From: Erysipelotrichaceae bacterium
GTDB lineage: Bacteria; Bacillota_I; Bacilli_A; Erysipelotrichales; Erysipelotrichaceae
Reading direction: 5' to 3'
DNA length: 58,966 nucleotides
NCBI GenBank assembly: GCA_015058875.1
Contig: SVBN01000007.1
Location: forward strand, 1 to 58,966
The first letter of the stretch is position 1. Every line of letters starts with the position of its first letter. The position numbers were made by a program, and so were the translations under genes. Positions 2,083-9,538 of the stretch are shown one piece after another. The notes beneath the pieces were generated by a model, which saw only the letters and a list, made by a program, of their open reading frames with translations, was not told the origin of the DNA and did not search any database.

Positions 2083-2931
2083 TTACTCCGGGTTTGAAAG
2101 AAATTGCGGAATCGCTTCGGCATCTTTCAGACCTTTTTTATACAGATGGTCCAGAATCTGATGATTCAGCGTCAGTGTTTTCAGACCGGAGATATCGTCC
2201 GGCGCAATGATTTTCACCTTTCCCGTTTTCTCCAGAGCAATCGCCTGTTCCAGCTGCCGGTTGTACAATGACGCGCGGTTGATCAGCGCGGTCCTCGCAC
2301 CTTTGTATTTTCTCAGAATCAGGCGTGCCATCCGTTTATCCTTATCGGGAATTCTCCGATAGTCCTTCGGTCTGGTCAGGATGATGACGACTTTGTCGCA
2401 GCCATGGTCAAACGCTCTCTGAAACGGAATCGGATCGCTCATTCCCCCGTCATAATATTTACTGCCGTTAAACGGATAAGGCCGGTCAATGACAGGCACA
2501 CAGCATGACATCTTCAGAAAAACATAATTGTTGCGCTCGATATTTTCTTTCTGCAGATATACAGGTTTGCCGGTATAGGCATCCGTCGCGACGATTTCCA
2601 TATGCGCCGGATTCTCCATCAGGGCATCATAGTCAAGCGGATATTCCCCGTCCTCATTCGTCAGGGTCCCGTAAATATAATCAAAATCCAGGTAGGATCC
2701 TTTTCTCAGAAGATTTTCCGCACTCATGTATTCTTTGCGGAATGAATAGTTGTTGTAAAATTCATAGTTTCTGTTTTTCTGACCGGCGAGATACGCTATG
2801 CCGTTCGCGCTTCCTGCGGAGACTCCTTCCACCACATCAAAATGAATGTCATTTGCCATGCAGTAATCAAATACGCCGGCGCCGTAAATTCCCCGCATGC
2901 CGCCGCCGACATCTATAATTCCGATTTTCAT
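2083..2931 (-). CDS. Patatin-like phospholipase
   Basis: Probable acyl hydrolase releasing fatty acids from membrane lipids. The catalytic dyad is visible: the oxyanion loop GGGMRG at residues 9-14, the nucleophile Ser38 in GVSAG, and Asp161 in YYDGGMSDP. At 282 residues it matches bacterial single-domain patatins. The frame is open 16 codons further upstream, overlapping the preceding stop, but AAAGGA before the ATG at 2931 supports the shorter start. It is the last gene of the leftward operon after the ligase, ACP and thioesterase genes, 44 bases behind the thioesterase. That placement suggests it feeds or disposes of acyl chains for this system. Confidence 0.88.
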   Translation of the reverse strand: MKIGIIDVGGGMRGIYGAGVFDYCMANDIHFDVVEGVSAGSANGIAYLAGQKNRNYEFYNNYSFRKEYMSAENLLRKGSYLDFDYIYGTLTNEDGEYPLDYDALMENPAHMEIVATDAYTGKPVYLQKENIERNNYVFLKMSCCVPVIDRPYPFNGSKYYDGGMSDPIPFQRAFDHGCDKVVIILTRPKDYRRIPDKDKRMARLILRKYKGARTALINRASLYNRQLEQAIALEKTGKVKIIAPDDISGLKTLTLNHQILDHLYKKGLKDAEAIPQFLSNPE

Positions 2932-2975
2932 ACTATTATTCCTTTCACCTTTTCCGTCCGTTTTCAATGCCCGGA

Positions 2976-3698
2976 TCATCGGATCTGTCCAAATTCCGCA
3001 TATATCCGGAAGGCCGCTTTTTCACCGGTGATTCCTTTCATAAAGAATGTCCTGTCCGTCTTTTTCCAGAGCACAGTCAGTTCTTCTCCATACCGTACTT
3101 CCCTGTGGTATTCCGTCCGGATCAGTTCCGGCGCAGAAAAAACACTGCTGTTCTGCAGCAGATCATCCATCAGATCAAAATACCGGGTGTTGTTCATATG
3201 CCCGTTCAGATCGCACCAGCTGAACGGCACACGCAGCCGCATCTGCCTGTCCGTATTCTCTTCCGCAATCCGTGAAGGCAGCGGATATTCTTCCGACGTT
3301 ACAATCCCCGGTACGGAAACTCCGTTCGCTTCCGGAAAAACGAACCGTCTTGTTTTCCCGTCCATCAGTGCCCAGAGTGCGCTCCCCTCCGCGAGAAGAC
3401 TGCCTTCTGCGTCCAGCAGCCGGTAAAATCTCGGGAACAGAACATGCATGGTATTTCCCGGCCAGGAGACGATCCGGACCGTTTCGTCATACTCCGGAAA
3501 GCGTATGATTTTCACCTCCTGCTGCACGACCACCCACAGCAGTCCTCTGTCCAGTGTTTTTTCTCTGCCCGCGCCCAGTTCCTCCGTATGCGCAATGGAG
3601 GCTTCCTGAAGAAATTCAAACAGTCTGGATGTCTTCAGTTTTTTAAACAGATTCACATCCCTGTTTTTCAGCGTGCAGGATGTTTCGTATATGTTCAT
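2976..3698 (-). CDS. Acyl-ACP thioesterase (FatA/FatB-like double hotdog)
   Basis: Hydrolyses acyl-ACP to a free fatty acid and ACP. The 240-residue protein has the two-hotdog layout of the plant/bacterial acyl-ACP thioesterase family. The second hotdog carries the signature DLNGHMNN at 163-170, with Asp163, Asn165 and His167 in the catalytic positions known for the family. Its ATG overlaps the ACP stop codon (ATGA), so the two are translationally coupled. Pairing with a dedicated ACP and an acyl-activating enzyme, away from the usual fab cluster, implies a specialised acyl-chain role rather than general fatty acid synthesis. Confidence 0.9.
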   Translation of the reverse strand: MNIYETSCTLKNRDVNLFKKLKTSRLFEFLQEASIAHTEELGAGREKTLDRGLLWVVVQQEVKIIRFPEYDETVRIVSWPGNTMHVLFPRFYRLLDAEGSLLAEGSALWALMDGKTRRFVFPEANGVSVPGIVTSEEYPLPSRIAEENTDRQMRLRVPFSWCDLNGHMNNTRYFDLMDDLLQNSSVFSAPELIRTEYHREVRYGEELTVLWKKTDRTFFMKGITGEKAAFRIYAEFGQIR

Positions 3699-3955
3699 GC
3701 ATTGTCCTTCGGAAGATGCTTCATCACCGTATTTACCAGATCACGGACAGTCTGCATTTTCCCCCATTCTTCATCGGGAATATGGACATTGAACTTTCCT
3801 TCCAGTTTGGTCACAACCAGTATGAATCCCATGGAATCGATTGCTGTTTCGTTATTCAGCACAGTATCTTCCGTCAGTTCTCCCTGTACCATTTCCGGGA
3901 CATTATCCATAATGATCTTCTTTGTGCCCGCCAGGACTTCTTCACGTGTAAGCAT
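3695..3955 (-). CDS. Dedicated acyl carrier protein
   Basis: Small acidic carrier of 86 residues. The phosphopantetheine attachment serine is Ser41 in AIDSMGF, a recognisable variant of the usual DSL motif. The frame extends nine codons upstream, but the ATG at 3955 has an AAAGGAG ribosome binding site and overlaps the ligase stop (TAATG), so it is the likely start. It lies between an AMP-forming ligase and a thioesterase with overlaps on both sides. That strongly suggests acyl chains are loaded by the ligase, carried here and released by the thioesterase. Confidence 0.92.
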   Translation of the reverse strand: MLTREEVLAGTKKIIMDNVPEMVQGELTEDTVLNNETAIDSMGFILVVTKLEGKFNVHIPDEEWGKMQTVRDLVNTVMKHLPKDNA

Positions 3956-5283
3956 TATCCCATCTCCTTTTCCAGTTTCCATCTCTGTATCTTTCCCGAT
4001 GCCGAACGCGGCAGTGGATGATTCACGGCCGCCGCACCGGACAGTTTTCTGCCGAACGGCTGATCCCGGTTGAACTCATCAATGGATTTGCGCAGGGCAT
4101 CCATATCACTGCACGTTTCCAGAATCAGGAACGGTTTCCCGTTTTTCAGAATTACCGCCAGCTGATCCGTTCCTGCGATTCTGCTGAGTGCTCCCTCGTA
4201 TTCCGGCAGAAAAATCTTCGTGCCGTCAGACATCACGAGAATGTCCTTTTTCCTTCCGGCAAGATGCAGCTTTCCGTTCTCGTCCAGATAACCGAGATCT
4301 CCCGTGGAAAGCACGCCGTTTTTCAATACCGCAGCGGTATCCTCCGGATATCTGTAGTATCCCTGCATCATGCACGTCTCAGAGGCAGCCAGTATTTCTC
4401 CGTCTTCCGCAATGGTAACAGTATCATCCGGGCAGATGCTCATGGAACGCGGGTCTGCCCCGGTACTGATGGCGACGCCGGAGCTGGTTTCAGTCAGTCC
4501 GTAGCCGAATGACAGCTGTATGCCTCTTTTCTTCACTTCTTCCATCAATTCATCCGGGCAGTCTCCCGCTCCGACAAGAATCAGCCGCATTTCCTCATTC
4601 AGACAGTCATGCCTGATCAGAAACTGCAGCAGCGACGGTACCGCGCAGATCACAGTCGGTCTGTACCATGCACAGTCATCGCCATAATGACGCATCCCTC
4701 TTCCGAGACACACCGGAACGCCGAACGTCATCGGCCAAAGCAGCGAACATACAAATCCGAACACATGAGACAGCGGCAGCACCGACAGCATCCTGTCTTC
4801 CTTTTCCAGCCCGAGCATCTGCCCGCCGTTATAAGCACTCTGCATCAGACTGTGATCCGTGAGTACAACAGCCTTGTTTTTTCCGGTCGTACCGCTCGTA
4901 AAAAACAGAATGTTTCCCGGACGCGCATGACTGTTTTTTATCTCCGGCAGAGGTATTTCCGGTTTCCCGTACAGCAGATCCATTTCCGTATATTCCGAAG
5001 CCTCTGCCAGTTCCTCTTTTTTCAGCAGCGGATCCAGCATGACAACCTGAAGACCCGAAAGATTGGCCGCAAAGATTTCCGCAATGCATTCCGGCGTACT
5101 GACTGCCGGGATGCCGATACAGGTTCCTGTATTCTTCAGCTCTTCACTCCGCACAAGTACCTGCCGGTAAAAATCCCGGTAACTGACCGGGACCGTTTCT
5201 TTTTCACCATAGAAAAAAGCCGTCTGATCCGGGAAGGTTCCGGCAAGATATTCCAGCAGATGTTTAAAACCCTGATAACGCAT
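3955..5283 (-). CDS. AMP-forming acyl-activating enzyme (acyl-ACP ligase candidate)
   Basis: ANL-superfamily adenylating enzyme that would activate a carboxylic acid with ATP and transfer it to a thiol. Visible motifs are the P-loop FFTSGTTGKNK at 127-137, YGLTETSS (A5), GRKKDI (A8) and the catalytic Lys431 in PRSASGKIQR. At 442 residues it is shorter than typical acyl-CoA synthetases. Because its stop overlaps the start of an ACP gene, ACP rather than CoA is the likely acceptor; this is inference. First gene of a four-gene leftward operon, with a promoter at 5329-5300. Confidence 0.9.
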   Translation of the reverse strand: MRYQGFKHLLEYLAGTFPDQTAFFYGEKETVPVSYRDFYRQVLVRSEELKNTGTCIGIPAVSTPECIAEIFAANLSGLQVVMLDPLLKKEELAEASEYTEMDLLYGKPEIPLPEIKNSHARPGNILFFTSGTTGKNKAVVLTDHSLMQSAYNGGQMLGLEKEDRMLSVLPLSHVFGFVCSLLWPMTFGVPVCLGRGMRHYGDDCAWYRPTVICAVPSLLQFLIRHDCLNEEMRLILVGAGDCPDELMEEVKKRGIQLSFGYGLTETSSGVAISTGADPRSMSICPDDTVTIAEDGEILAASETCMMQGYYRYPEDTAAVLKNGVLSTGDLGYLDENGKLHLAGRKKDILVMSDGTKIFLPEYEGALSRIAGTDQLAVILKNGKPFLILETCSDMDALRKSIDEFNRDQPFGRKLSGAAAVNHPLPRSASGKIQRWKLEKEMG

Positions 5284-5299
5284 AGTCTCTTCTGAAAGA

Positions 5300-5329
5300 A
5301 GTATAGCACATTTGTAAAAAAATTCACAA
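5300..5329 (-). promoter_or_regulatory. Promoter of the ligase-ACP-thioesterase-patatin operon
   Basis: On the minus strand TTGTGA (5329-5324), an 18-base spacer and TATACT (5305-5300), 17 bases before the ligase start codon. It sits back to back with the promoter of the rightward isomerase-like operon. Confidence 0.5.
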
Positions 5330-5357
5330 AAATGTTATTGTACCCTGCTTTCCGTTG

Positions 5358-5363
5358 TATAAT
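5358..5363 (+). promoter_or_regulatory. -10 element of the isomerase-like operon
   Basis: Perfect TATAAT 26 bases before the start codon at 5389. A -35 match 17 bases upstream is poor (TTATTG), so an activator may be needed. The transcript leader would be only about 20 bases and includes AAGGAG at 5373-5378. Confidence 0.45.
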
Positions 5364-5388
5364 GAACTCAATAAGGAGTCTGCAAGAC

Positions 5389-6744
5389 ATGGATAAAAAC
5401 ATAAAGATCTGCATTATCGGAGGCGGTCCCGCGGGCCTTTCTGCGGGAATGTATCTGGAAAAGAAAGGATACGAAAACTACACGATTCTCGAGAAAAATG
5501 ATCATGTAGGCGGAAAATGCCACAGCCCGCACTATAACGGAAGACGTTATGAAATGGGTGCCATCATGGGCGTGCCGTCCTATTACGCCGTTCATGACGT
5601 GGAAGAATTCTGCGGCATTACACATGACGGGCCGAAGCTGAACCGTAATTATAAGAATAAAGAAGGAAAAGTCATCGAACCGTTCGAACCGAAAAAGAAC
5701 ATCACCAAAATCCCTCAGCTGATGGCGATGAAAAAGCAGGTCAAGAAGCTCGGTGAAATTCTGGAAACAAAGTATAAAGGGTATGACGTCAACGGACACA
5801 GAGGCGTTGCGCAGGGAAGATATGAAGGCTTCGCCGTCACACCGGAAAGAGAACCGGTCAGCGGCGTCAATCCGAATCTGAAGGATCTTGCCCTTCCGTT
5901 CAAAGAATTCTGCCGGCTGAACGGCGTCGAACTGACACAGGATATCTGGATCGGACCGTTCACCTCATTCGGCTATGGATATTTTGATGAGATTCCGGCA
6001 GCCTATGTTCTGAAATACCTCGATTTCCAGACATGCATGAACTTCGTCAAGATCAATCTCTGGACATGGAAGGAAGGCACTCAGTTTATCTGGGAAAGCC
6101 TCAACAGCAAGCTGAAGCACGGGGCCAGACTGAACAGCAATATCACGAAGATCGAGCGCAGAGACGGAAAAGTATATGTCACAGTCAACGGCGAAATTGA
6201 AGAATATGACAAGCTGATCGTTACCGCGCCGCTGCAGTACTTCCCGGACTATGCGGATGCCCGTGAAGATGAAAAGCATTATTTCAGCAGGATCGAGTAT
6301 GAACGCTATGATGTTCTGGCAGTTGAGACAAAGCCGGAAGATCATCCGGAAATCTCCTACTATGTATTCGACAACATGACGCCGGAGCGTCTCGGCCACC
6401 TGATGGTTTATTACAGAAGATGGAGAGATACAAAGGATCAGGTTATCACAACATATGCACTCCGCAAGCATAAGAATACGGATGAAATCCCGTATGACGA
6501 ATGCAGAAGAACAGTGCTGGAAGACCTGAAGACAATGCATAACCCGGCCAGCGCAGTCGTCAATGAACAGTCCTGGTATTACTTCCCGCATGTATTTACA
6601 GAAGATTATGCGGCAGGATGGTATGATGATGTCGAAGCAATGCAGGGCAAATACGATACCTATTATGCAGGTGAGGTAATGAGCTTCGGTGATATGGACG
6701 AAACAGCCGAGTACTCCCGTGAGCTCGTTGAGCGTTTCTTCTGA
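5389..6744 (+). CDS. FAD-dependent polyunsaturated fatty acid isomerase-like protein
   Basis: Flavoprotein of 451 residues with an N-terminal Rossmann motif GGGPAG at residues 11-16 and an acidic residue ending the second strand. From memory, its sequence closely follows the Cutibacterium acnes polyunsaturated fatty acid isomerase, which converts linoleate to trans-10,cis-12 conjugated linoleate. Shared stretches include GGKCHSP, GRRYEMGAIMGVPSY, PAAYVLKYLDF, MTPERLGHLMVYY and SWYYFPHV. No alignment was run. ATG at 5389 is chosen for its AAGGAG site; the frame is open 19 codons further upstream. It is about 25 residues longer than the known isomerase, with extra residues near 145-170. Role inferred: isomerisation or related chemistry on an acyl chain, free or ACP-bound. 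Confidence 0.8.
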   Translation: MDKNIKICIIGGGPAGLSAGMYLEKKGYENYTILEKNDHVGGKCHSPHYNGRRYEMGAIMGVPSYYAVHDVEEFCGITHDGPKLNRNYKNKEGKVIEPFEPKKNITKIPQLMAMKKQVKKLGEILETKYKGYDVNGHRGVAQGRYEGFAVTPEREPVSGVNPNLKDLALPFKEFCRLNGVELTQDIWIGPFTSFGYGYFDEIPAAYVLKYLDFQTCMNFVKINLWTWKEGTQFIWESLNSKLKHGARLNSNITKIERRDGKVYVTVNGEIEEYDKLIVTAPLQYFPDYADAREDEKHYFSRIEYERYDVLAVETKPEDHPEISYYVFDNMTPERLGHLMVYYRRWRDTKDQVITTYALRKHKNTDEIPYDECRRTVLEDLKTMHNPASAVVNEQSWYYFPHVFTEDYAAGWYDDVEAMQGKYDTYYAGEVMSFGDMDETAEYSRELVERFF

Positions 6745-6752
6745 TGAAACTG

Positions 6753-6785
6753 AAAGTTCCCTGTTTCCGTGACAGGGAACTTTTT
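6753..6785 (+). terminator. Hairpin with short T-run between the first two oxidoreductase genes
   Basis: AAAGTTCCCTG (6753-6763) pairs with CAGGGAACTTT (from 6773) and runs into a five-T tract. Because the next gene has its own RBS and no obvious promoter, this is more likely a partial terminator or mRNA-stability hairpin than an operon end. Confidence 0.55.
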
Positions 6786-6803
6786 CAGGAAAGGAAATAA
6801 CTG

Positions 6804-8357
6804 ATGAAATTTTACAAAGACCATTACGACGTGATTGTCATCGGCGGCGCACTTGCCGGCATGAGCTGCGCGATGTCGCTCGCCAGAGAAGGAAAAGATG
6901 TGCTGATTCTGGAACGGCACAATCTCCCCGGAGGCATGGCCACCAGCTTTGTCAGAAACGGGGTTGAAATTGAGGCCACGCTCCATGAAATGATGTCCCT
7001 CGGCAAGGCGGAAGATCCGCTCTATATCCGGAAGTATCTGGATGAAATGAACGTGGCGATTGACTGGCTCAGAGTACCTGAGGCATATGAACTGCTTTCA
7101 AAACCGGACGGAATCGATATTACTCTTCATGCCGGGAGAAGAAGCGACGGCACCTGGGTATGCGCGGATGAGATTGATGCGGTTTATCCCGGCACAAAAG
7201 ATGAAATCAACCGCCTGCTCGAACTGTGCAGAAGCGTATATGAATCCGTGCTGTTCCTGAATGAGCATACAATGTCCAAGGCAATGATGCTTCTGAAGCA
7301 TGAACCGCTGGTCAAGACAGCCGGTTATTCCGCAAAGGAAGTGCTCGATACATCCTTTGACCTCCCGCTGAATGTCAAAAAGATTCTGAGCGCCTACTGG
7401 ATCTATGTCGGACAGCCGATGAGCACTCTTCCGTTTACCATCTACGCCTTCCTGATGGCGGACTATATGATGGGCGGTTCCTTCGTCGCAAGAGGCTTCT
7501 CGCATGAGATGTCCGTGGCAATGGCGGAGAAATGCGAAGAGCTCGGCGTGCAGTTTGAATACGGACAGAATGTCGAAAAGATTCTGGTCAGGGACAATCA
7601 TGTCTACGGCGTCCGCACATCCCGGGGAGATGAGATTCACTGCGACTATGTTGCCAGCGCCCCCTATCCGAATACCGTATACGGAAAGATGATTGAACCG
7701 CAGTCGGAAGTGCCCGAGGCTGCCAGAAAATATGCCAATGCGATGCCGATGAGCGTCACCTGCTTCAGCGTCATCCTCCTGCTTGATCAGAAGCCGGAAG
7801 ATCTGAATATCAGAACCTATTCCGTCTTCTCTTCCGATGTCCCGTTTGATACGGACCGCTTCTGGAAGGAAGGCAGGCAGATCGGCGGCTGGAATTATCT
7901 GACCACCATCTGTCTGAACTACGCCAACCCGGAAGGGGTTCCGGAAGGAATGACTTCCCTGTCGATCACCTATCTGCCGCTTCCGGATGCATTCCTGGAG
8001 CTGGATGCGGATTCCTACTTTGAATTCAAGCGGACAGTCGCAAAGGAAATGATCGACCGTGTATCCGGTCATCTCGGCGTGGATCTGATTCCGCATATTG
8101 CCGAGATCGAGATCGTCTCACCGGTCACCATGTCGCACTATACCAGCGACTACCGCGGAGGCATCTACGGCTACCAGCATTCCATGGACAACTCGGTTGT
8201 CGCCCGTCTGGAGGATCTGGAAAAGGAATTCTACATCAAGGGTCTCGTCGGATGCGCCAGCCACCAGCTGGTCGGCGACGGCATGGCCTGCAATATCAAC
8301 AACGGACGCATTGCCGCCAAGGCAATTCTTGAATGGATGAAGGAGGCCGGAAAATGA
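6804..8357 (+). CDS. CrtI/retinol-saturase-like FAD oxidoreductase
   Basis: FAD-dependent oxidoreductase of 517 residues in the phytoene desaturase / retinol saturase superfamily. The dinucleotide-binding fold is at the N-terminus (VIGGALAG around 12-19, then ILERHNLPGG), and the C-terminal FAD-contact segment includes GDGMACNINNG. Family members desaturate, saturate or isomerise polyenes. Its gene follows the isomerase-like gene by 59 bases and overlaps the downstream reductase gene by four bases (ATGA), so the reductase is its likely electron partner. No carotenoid genes are nearby, so a fatty-acyl substrate (for example double-bond reduction) is more plausible than a carotenoid. Substrate and direction are unknown. 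Confidence 0.82.
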   Translation: MKFYKDHYDVIVIGGALAGMSCAMSLAREGKDVLILERHNLPGGMATSFVRNGVEIEATLHEMMSLGKAEDPLYIRKYLDEMNVAIDWLRVPEAYELLSKPDGIDITLHAGRRSDGTWVCADEIDAVYPGTKDEINRLLELCRSVYESVLFLNEHTMSKAMMLLKHEPLVKTAGYSAKEVLDTSFDLPLNVKKILSAYWIYVGQPMSTLPFTIYAFLMADYMMGGSFVARGFSHEMSVAMAEKCEELGVQFEYGQNVEKILVRDNHVYGVRTSRGDEIHCDYVASAPYPNTVYGKMIEPQSEVPEAARKYANAMPMSVTCFSVILLLDQKPEDLNIRTYSVFSSDVPFDTDRFWKEGRQIGGWNYLTTICLNYANPEGVPEGMTSLSITYLPLPDAFLELDADSYFEFKRTVAKEMIDRVSGHLGVDLIPHIAEIEIVSPVTMSHYTSDYRGGIYGYQHSMDNSVVARLEDLEKEFYIKGLVGCASHQLVGDGMACNINNGRIAAKAILEWMKEAGK

Positions 8358-9538
8358 AAGTCAATGGATTTCTGAAGGACGTTACCGGCGCTTCCCGTGT
8401 AACCAAAGCAAGAAGAACCCTGATTCAGAACGGCAATCCTGCCAATATTTACCGCGATCCGATCCGGGAAGTTGCGCTTGAAGTACATCCCGAACCGATG
8501 CAGGTACGCTGCACGCAGGTAAAGGACGCCAGCACAACCGCAAAAACATTCCGCTTTGAAGCAGCCGGCGGCAAACTGCCGCCGTTCCAGGCAGGACAGT
8601 ATGTCTCGTTTGAGCTGAAGATCGGCAATACCGTTACAACAAGACCGTTCTCTATTTCCAGCGCCCCGTTTGAAGCGCGGCAGAAAGATCATCCGTTCTT
8701 TGAAGTCACCGTACGCAGAGGCAGAGAAGACGGTTTTGTCAGCAACTATTTCTATGACTCCGTTCACGAAGGCGATGCATTCACCGTATCCCTTCCCTTC
8801 GGGCAGTTCTTCTATGAGCCGCTCAGAGACGGCAGACACATCCTGGCACTGGCCGGGGGATCCGGCATCACGCCGTTTGTGTCCATGGCAAAGGAAATCC
8901 GCCACGGGACACTGGATGCGGATCTGACGATCCTTGCCGGAAATGTCTCCTCTTCCGATATCATCCTGAAGGATGAACTCGATCAGCTTGCCGGCGGCAG
9001 AGTAAAAGTTGTTCATGTCATCTCCGGTGAAGAAGACTGGCAGGGTGAAAAAGGCTTCCTGACTTCCGATCTTATCCGGAAGTATATGCGGGAAGACAGC
9101 TCCTTCTTTGTCTGCGGTCCGCAGGTGATGTATCAGTTCGTCCGCGGTGAGCTGGAAAAGCTGAATATCGCCCCGAAACGGATCCGGATGGAAGTGTTCG
9201 GTGCACCGCGCGACATTACAAAGGCAGACGGATATCCGCTGAAGGAAGCACAGACATTCCGGCTTCACGTCATGCGCGGCATCCATGAAGATGTCATCGA
9301 GGCATCCTCCGCAGAATCACTGGCAGTCGCCATGGAGCGCGCCGGAATCAAAAACAAGACACGCTGCCGTTCCGGTGCCTGCGGATACTGCCGCTGCAAG
9401 CTGGTCAGCGGCGAGGTCTTTGTCCCTTCCGACGGAGACGGAAGACGCTGGGCGGATAAAAAGTTCGGATATGTTCATGCATGTTCCGCATATCCGCTGT
9501 CTGACTGCACCATAAAAATCATCATTGAAGCAGACTGA
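8354..9538 (+). CDS. Ferredoxin-NAD(P)H reductase fused to a C-terminal [2Fe-2S] ferredoxin domain
   Basis: Electron-transfer protein of 394 residues. A lead segment (1-50) of unclear role precedes an FNR-type FAD domain (RPFSISSAP from residue 97) and an NAD(P) domain (GGSGITP at 168-174; CGPQ near 254). A plant-type [2Fe-2S] domain follows with Cys338, Cys343, Cys346 and Cys377 in C-x4-C-x2-C...C spacing. It should pass electrons from NAD(P)H through FAD to the iron-sulfur centre and on to a partner, most likely the CrtI-like protein encoded just upstream. ATG at 8354 overlaps the upstream stop and has AAGGAGG; an in-frame start seven codons earlier is less likely. Confidence 0.9.
   Translation: MKVNGFLKDVTGASRVTKARRTLIQNGNPANIYRDPIREVALEVHPEPMQVRCTQVKDASTTAKTFRFEAAGGKLPPFQAGQYVSFELKIGNTVTTRPFSISSAPFEARQKDHPFFEVTVRRGREDGFVSNYFYDSVHEGDAFTVSLPFGQFFYEPLRDGRHILALAGGSGITPFVSMAKEIRHGTLDADLTILAGNVSSSDIILKDELDQLAGGRVKVVHVISGEEDWQGEKGFLTSDLIRKYMREDSSFFVCGPQVMYQFVRGELEKLNIAPKRIRMEVFGAPRDITKADGYPLKEAQTFRLHVMRGIHEDVIEASSAESLAVAMERAGIKNKTRCRSGACGYCRCKLVSGEVFVPSDGDGRRWADKKFGYVHACSAYPLSDCTIKIIIEAD

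Follow-up and report, generated by a model that had tools for sequence, protein, structure and literature searches.

Ruminal biohydrogenation is described by its intermediates, and the genes behind it are largely unknown. Among the closest described systems is the linoleate isomerase of Cutibacterium acnes (PAI; structure 2b9w), a single enzyme of 424-425 amino acids from an organism that stops at trans-10,cis-12 conjugated linoleic acid (CLA) according to the available text of PMC7339423, which also states that, with 28 tested, the bacteria forming trans-10 intermediates have not been unambiguously identified. PAI-type isomerase genes were reported in seven rumen metagenome-assembled genomes (MAGs) of Lachnospiraceae, Oscillospiraceae and unclassified bacteria, and the available text of that study (PMC10019597) names the isomerase alone, with no reductase, acyl carrier protein (ACP) set or operon. 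Here we describe a module of six genes that includes a PAI-type isomerase (ISO), in a 58,966-base stretch of DNA from an Erysipelotrichaceae bacterium (hereafter the window, meaning the whole stretch analysed), which is one entire contig from a 3.03 Mb draft genome that is 93% complete. PAI and the PAI-type genes of rumen MAGs were known already; for the six-gene module we found no description in the open-licence literature, closed-access papers being outside the search. Gene families, residues, operon layout, co-conservation, constraint and a missing condensing enzyme were computed, and together they make it fairly likely, in our judgement, that the module biohydrogenates exogenous 18-carbon polyunsaturated fatty acids (PUFA) to trans-monoenes.

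Two further systems resemble the module in part. Lactobacillus plantarum likewise converts PUFA with several enzymes (CLA-HY, CLA-DH and CLA-DC), encoded partly in an operon (available text of PMC13365329). The chemistry there is that of the MCRA hydratase, whereas no cluster gene in the window has an MCRA family match. An enone reductase belongs to the Lactobacillus system as well. The CLA reductase of Butyrivibrio fibrisolvens, reportedly treated by Hughes in 1982 and by Fukuda in 2007 (the latter under a title that reports gene sequencing), reduces a conjugated diene and is a possible functional counterpart of two redox proteins of the module, CRTI and FNR. The reducing enzyme of Butyrivibrio is stated in the available text of PMC4478896 as not found in KEGG, COG or Pfam. 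The genes of the locus, by window coordinates, are:

2083-2979, minus strand: patatin-like lipase with DUF6363 (PF01734), directly downstream of TE on the same strand and outside the conserved module
2976-3698, minus strand: TE, acyl-ACP thioesterase, 240 amino acids (PF01643 and PF20791)
3695-3955, minus strand: ACP, carrier protein with a DSM phosphopantetheine serine (PF00550); the open reading frame (ORF) is listed to 3982, with its likely start at 3955
3955-5283, minus strand: LIG, short AMP-forming ligase, 442 amino acids (PF00501), proposed acyl-ACP (or acyl-CoA) ligase
5284-5388, no strand: divergent promoter region shared by LIG and ISO
5389-6744, plus strand: ISO, PAI-type PUFA isomerase (FAD), 451 amino acids, flavin amine-oxidase-type with a match to 2b9w
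6804-8357, plus strand: CRTI, flavoprotein of the carotenoid-desaturase/saturase fold, 517 amino acids, flavin amine-oxidase-type, proposed conjugated-diene reductase
8333-9538, plus strand: FNR, NAD(P)H ferredoxin-reductase-like protein with a C-terminal 2Fe-2S domain, 401 amino acids (FAD_binding_6, NAD_binding_1 and Fer2), proposed electron donor to CRTI

A reading of this DNA from its letters alone (the sequence-only reading) had placed seven genes here in two back-to-back operons. All seven ORFs are open where it put them and each returned the expected family in profile searches, including the two redox proteins in the operon of ISO, of which CRTI has a carotenoid desaturase fold. The short overlaps that it described through the thioesterase are likewise there in the sequence, LIG and ACP sharing 1 base (TAATG) and ACP and TE sharing 4 bases (ATGA). 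An AAGGAG ribosome site lies immediately 5' of ISO.

Conservation of the six genes

We scanned one genome per species (84,980 species), which yielded 169 encoding stretches, and read the best 80 (L015-L094, 80-91% identity), counting a gene as testable in a locus if it was present or if the flank was long enough. All six genes occurred in the same divergent layout in 54/61 testable loci; taken singly, CRTI was found beside ISO in 74/75, FNR in 72/73, LIG in 64/74, ACP in 62/71 and TE in 60/68 testable loci. Genome G021, a genus relative of the window, carries ISO-CRTI-FNR-LIG-ACP-TE and a large Fe-S GltD-like oxidoreductase in one same-strand run (L112, 1310-10820). The gene grouping is more than chance, and the two operons are conserved together, a point that the sequence-only reading had named as a check on its idea. 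Of the seven genes that it listed, this holds for six and fails for the patatin, a relative of which was found within 6 kb of ISO in 0/58 testable loci (that patatin only; other lipase families were not looked for). This count ruled out the patatin as a module member; in L030, one patatin match of 50% identity sits about 7.4 kb downstream from ISO. With the start given in the ORF list, the patatin would overlap TE by 4 bases as well, but another start, near 2931, has a better ribosome site. Another ORF adjoining the module (1395-2072, 225 amino acids) had no Pfam or NCBIfam match at 0.001 and none in the 80 loci at 1e-4.

By record title, the carriers are Erysipelotrichaceae/Solobacterium, Lachnospiraceae, Ruminococcaceae/Oscillospiraceae, unclassified Clostridia, others and two Sphaerochaetaceae, all as draft genomes in which binning errors are possible; the closest named relatives in the species scan are uncultured Solobacterium/Erysipelotrichaceae, many of them ruminant-gut by title. 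ISO was present in 12/23 genus relatives and in 0/16 genomes of another family of the order. CRTI (at least 50% identity) occurred in 11 of the 12 ISO-bearing genus relatives, the contig ending beside ISO in the twelfth (G004), and in 0/11 of those without ISO. Six genus genomes have ISO with flank and no adjoining LIG; LIG-ACP-TE lies at another genome site in G007, G022 and G023, G001 has ACP-TE at a contig end, away from ISO, and the other two, G010 and G014, gave no TE match. The TE adjoining ISO in one relative (G004:C93:3336-4025) shows one in-frame TGA.

Isomerase, redox partners and acyl-handling genes

The closeness of ISO to the Cutibacterium isomerase, which the sequence-only reading had put forward, was borne out: the best PDB match of ISO is 2b9w (E 1e-150), and 232 of 416 aligned residues are identical (56%), which excludes low identity and gives kinship over the full length, FAD site included. 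In PAI, R88 and F193 reportedly form the substrate gate for the carboxylate (Liavonchanka 2006). The residues of ISO that align with them, R86 and F219, are both retained and invariant in 81/81 cluster ISOs (the window plus the 80 loci read). ISO differs from PAI in its five partner genes and in an insert at residues 138-163 (26 residues, where PAI has 4), which is filled in 81/81 cluster ISOs and in which R138, G139, V140, G143, Y145, G147, R154, G159 and N161 are invariant among 36 aligned sequences; in the module form this insert may serve for docking or as a lid. On these alignments, the role of ISO as a PAI-type isomerase is well supported. Since the carboxylate-binding arginine is retained, the substrate at the isomerisation step would rather be the free acid, and charging onto ACP after isomerisation appears more likely. 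A structure model of ISO was of low confidence (pLDDT 66) and was set aside. Three Solobacterium loci (L016, 1582-2925; L019; L026) have a citrate synthase-like protein, recognised by eye, between ISO and CRTI.

The whole-chain fold of CRTI matches the CrtI/CrtD structural superfamily. CRTI scored 96.1 bits against TIGR02734 (CrtI phytoene desaturase), below the curated cut-off of 238.1, and it differs from the carotenoid desaturase/saturase family (CrtI, CrtD 4rep) in an identity of 18% and in its ferredoxin-reductase-like partner. RetSat is a further member of that family. The best matches of FNR were GbcB and BenC, both below cut-off. A role of CRTI and FNR as a reductase is moderately supported. 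Directly after FNR, 29/56 loci encode a GltD-like flavoprotein of about 937 amino acids with several 4Fe-4S sites (for example L044, 14171-16990; L112, 8052-10820), which is also found in the window's own genome (G000:C41, C91 and C23); in L114 and L148 a GltD-like protein directly follows ISO itself. As for CRTI-FNR pairs that stand apart from ISO, the one in L133 has two DUF5692 proteins and a GntR/FCD regulator as its neighbours, and the one in L117 lies beside AAA/VWA-like genes (by eye). A parallel row in genome G246 (L134, 8103-12357) consists of an ISO-like protein (25%), CRTI (26%) and FNR (34%); some 1.8 kb upstream, the opposite strand carries an ORF that looks patatin-like (by eye).

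On the acyl-handling side, TE has both hotdog domains, and its residues D163, N165, H167 and E200 are invariant in 26/26 aligned sequences; D-x-N-x-H plus E is the residue pattern of plant FatB. LIG has the AMP-binding domain PF00501 and adjoins ACP, and its role as an acyl-ACP synthetase is putative. The cluster ACP is the sole PF00550 match at E <= 1e-3 in its own genome, by a search that is not exhaustive, since it failed to pick up the cluster ACP in G011 and in G017. Judging by these neighbours and domains, the acyl chain would be tethered to ACP.

Constraint, regulation and fatty acid synthesis in the carriers

Across 13 locus pairs and five genes, the proportion of synonymous differences (pS) was 0.58-0.86, near saturation, the exception being the close pair L037/L039 (0.25-0.51); for ISO it was 0.58-0.81 in 12/13 pairs and 0.25 in the closest. 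The proportion of non-synonymous differences (pN) was 0.02-0.13 for ISO vs 0.08-0.46 for LIG and TE. Because synonymous sites are near saturation and non-synonymous change is low, the high identity of ISO across families reflects purifying selection, and recent horizontal transfer was rejected as its explanation on the near-saturation in 12/13 pairs. L061, L068 and L087 join the Erysipelotrichaceae rows in the ISO tree, together with the divergent L112, L128 and L129 (98/98), and join L037/L039 in the CRTI tree (100/99). With groups chosen after the trees were inspected, the ISO grouping is rejected by the CRTI data (p 0.0003), and the CRTI grouping is not rejected by the ISO data (p 0.117). 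In G361 (L129), a divergent set, ISO is at 71% and CRTI at 74%, whereas ISO of the clostridial loci is at 80-84% and their CRTI at approximately 54%. Reassortment of this kind, with the layout unchanged, is consistent with selection on the combination. A search of PLSDB for plasmid carriage of ISO gave three distant matches only (25-27%), and none of 7 pattern matches in IMG/VR was confirmed as phage carriage. Relatives of CRTI occur in 34 plasmid records, 21-26% identical among the 15 matches listed, with no Butyrivibrio lead. An 8.5 kb unverified 'Bacteriophage sp.' scaffold from human faeces (L148, MT836859.1) carries a 53% ISO relative, then a GltD-like gene and a HypA-like gene (by eye), and is probably bacterial DNA.

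Within the 200 bases upstream of ISO, [CA]GTGCA stands 17 bases (fixed spacing) before a -10-like box in 28/78 regions, against a mean of 0.9 and a maximum of 5 in 200 Markov controls, a comparison that ignores kinship; the window's own ISO upstream region is without the element. A common palindromic operator was sought upstream of ISO, and none was consistent among 13 regions. A GntR/FCD regulator lies beside CRTI in six mapped loci.

The condensing enzyme of fatty acid synthesis was judged by PF00109 (FabF/FabB) alone among the type II fatty acid synthesis genes, with full-length meaning E <= 1e-30. The window's own genome has no PF00109 match, and 14/14 control genomes were positive. A full-length match was found in 0/23 genus members (13 with ISO, 10 without; G009 left out), 7 of which show short partial matches above the Pfam cut-off, and in 3/3 genomes of the other family. 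Among non-Erysipelotrichaceae carriers the count was 4/57 (1/10 plus 3/47, one in two pieces), vs 189/246 background genomes of one carrier's order (202 with any match, 13 with weak matches only). Partial ketoacyl-synthase matches (ORFs of about 400 amino acids) were considered as a hidden fatty acid synthase, and the two checked were thiolases. Most tested carriers thus seem unable to make fatty acids, suggesting that the fatty acids on which the module acts are scavenged ones, perhaps destined for membranes. A precedent for fatty acid auxotrophy in the rumen is Syntrophococcus sucromutans, which needs C18:1 acids for growth and is said not to join biohydrogenation (available text of PMC9853040).

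Proposed pathway and alternative explanations

We infer every reaction, the reaction order and the product from gene families and context. Free PUFA would enter, and ISO would shift a double bond of a linoleic-type acid. The conjugated diene so formed would most likely be the trans-10,cis-12 isomer that Cutibacterium makes. LIG would load the chain onto the dedicated ACP using ATP, before or after isomerisation, with R86 and F219 favouring isomerisation of the free acid first. Electrons would reach CRTI from NAD(P)H by way of FNR, and perhaps also from the GltD-like Fe-S oxidoreductase, and CRTI would use them to reduce the diene to a trans-monoene; TE would release this product, unless the acyl-ACP passes to lipid synthesis. 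Acyl-ACP is the likely handle for the pathway. From plant PUFA that the cell scavenges, the module would probably produce trans-monoenes that are usable and less toxic, and it would act as an electron sink too; detoxification may be its purpose, as one option. The sequence-only reading thus stands for the isomerase, the two redox proteins, the dedicated ligase-ACP-thioesterase set and the joint operons. Its entry step, in which patatin frees the chain from lipids, falls: in the window the patatin gene does follow TE directly on one strand, but the 0/58 testable loci and the sole distant match in L030 make such a first step very improbable.

It is possible, though we rather doubt it, that ISO, CRTI and FNR act on free fatty acids for detoxification or as an electron sink, and that LIG-ACP-TE is a separate scavenging set sharing regulator and locus. 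The invariant R86 and F219 fit this, as does the conversion of added linoleic acid by cells expressing PAI only (available text of PMC2885616): PAI works as a single enzyme, and ISO, having retained R86, may be independent of ACP. It would also account for the three genomes with LIG-ACP-TE elsewhere and for the loci in which LIG (10), ACP (9) or TE (8) is absent beside ISO. Against it, the halves stand together in the 54/61 loci across records named Erysipelotrichaceae, clostridial groups and Sphaerochaetaceae, and the FNR and LIG matches of G021 lie about 10 bases apart on one strand. The points in its favour weigh against an ACP-linked biohydrogenation, and so do several others. L022 is without CRTI and FNR within 10 kb, G010 (69% complete) and G014 gave no TE match, and CRTI-FNR pairs occur without a nearby ISO (L130-L133, L117), so their substrates may be broader. 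Within the genus, the condensing enzyme is missing whether or not ISO is present, so its absence does not follow the module; two divergent carriers, G287 and G361, show a full-length PF00109 match; some background matches lie in very long PKS-like frames, not FabF; and the difference between carriers and background (Fisher p 2e-23) ignores kinship and includes carriers not all known to be members of that order.

Two other explanations concern the chemistry and the origin of the chain. CRTI could be a redox-neutral cis-trans isomerase like CrtISO, with FNR keeping its flavin reduced and isomerised rather than hydrogenated PUFA as the end product. CrtISO requires reduced flavin, and CRTI also matches the carotenoid isomerase model TIGR02730 (E 4.7e-19), far below cut-off. 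We consider this unlikely, as the NAD(P)H/2Fe-2S reductase in 72/73 loci and the second large oxidoreductase directly after it in 29/56 suggest stoichiometric electron flow. The module could also serve to build a special lipid of the cell's own, such as a signal or an unusual membrane chain, rather than convert dietary PUFA; biosynthetic clusters typically have an ACP, a ligase and a thioesterase of their own, and TE and LIG vary here while ISO is nearly fixed. This we regard as quite improbable, given that ISO keeps the PAI gate and that most tested carriers, apparently unable to synthesise acyl chains, must obtain the chain from an external source.

The biohydrogenation reading offers candidate genes for both isomerisation and reduction, along with uncultured hosts, and the question becomes testable. 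A wider version, which we put forward only tentatively, is that of a widespread ACP-tethered pathway in which gut bacteria that have lost fatty acid synthesis scavenge plant PUFA and convert them to trans-10 monoenes, to be used in their own membranes. A trans-10 monoene pathway, if true, would supply the missing genes and organisms of the rumen trans-10 route behind milk fat depression. The module's apparent association with lost fatty acid synthesis points to a further possible motive for hydrogenation, namely that of obtaining usable membrane chains from a toxic food source.

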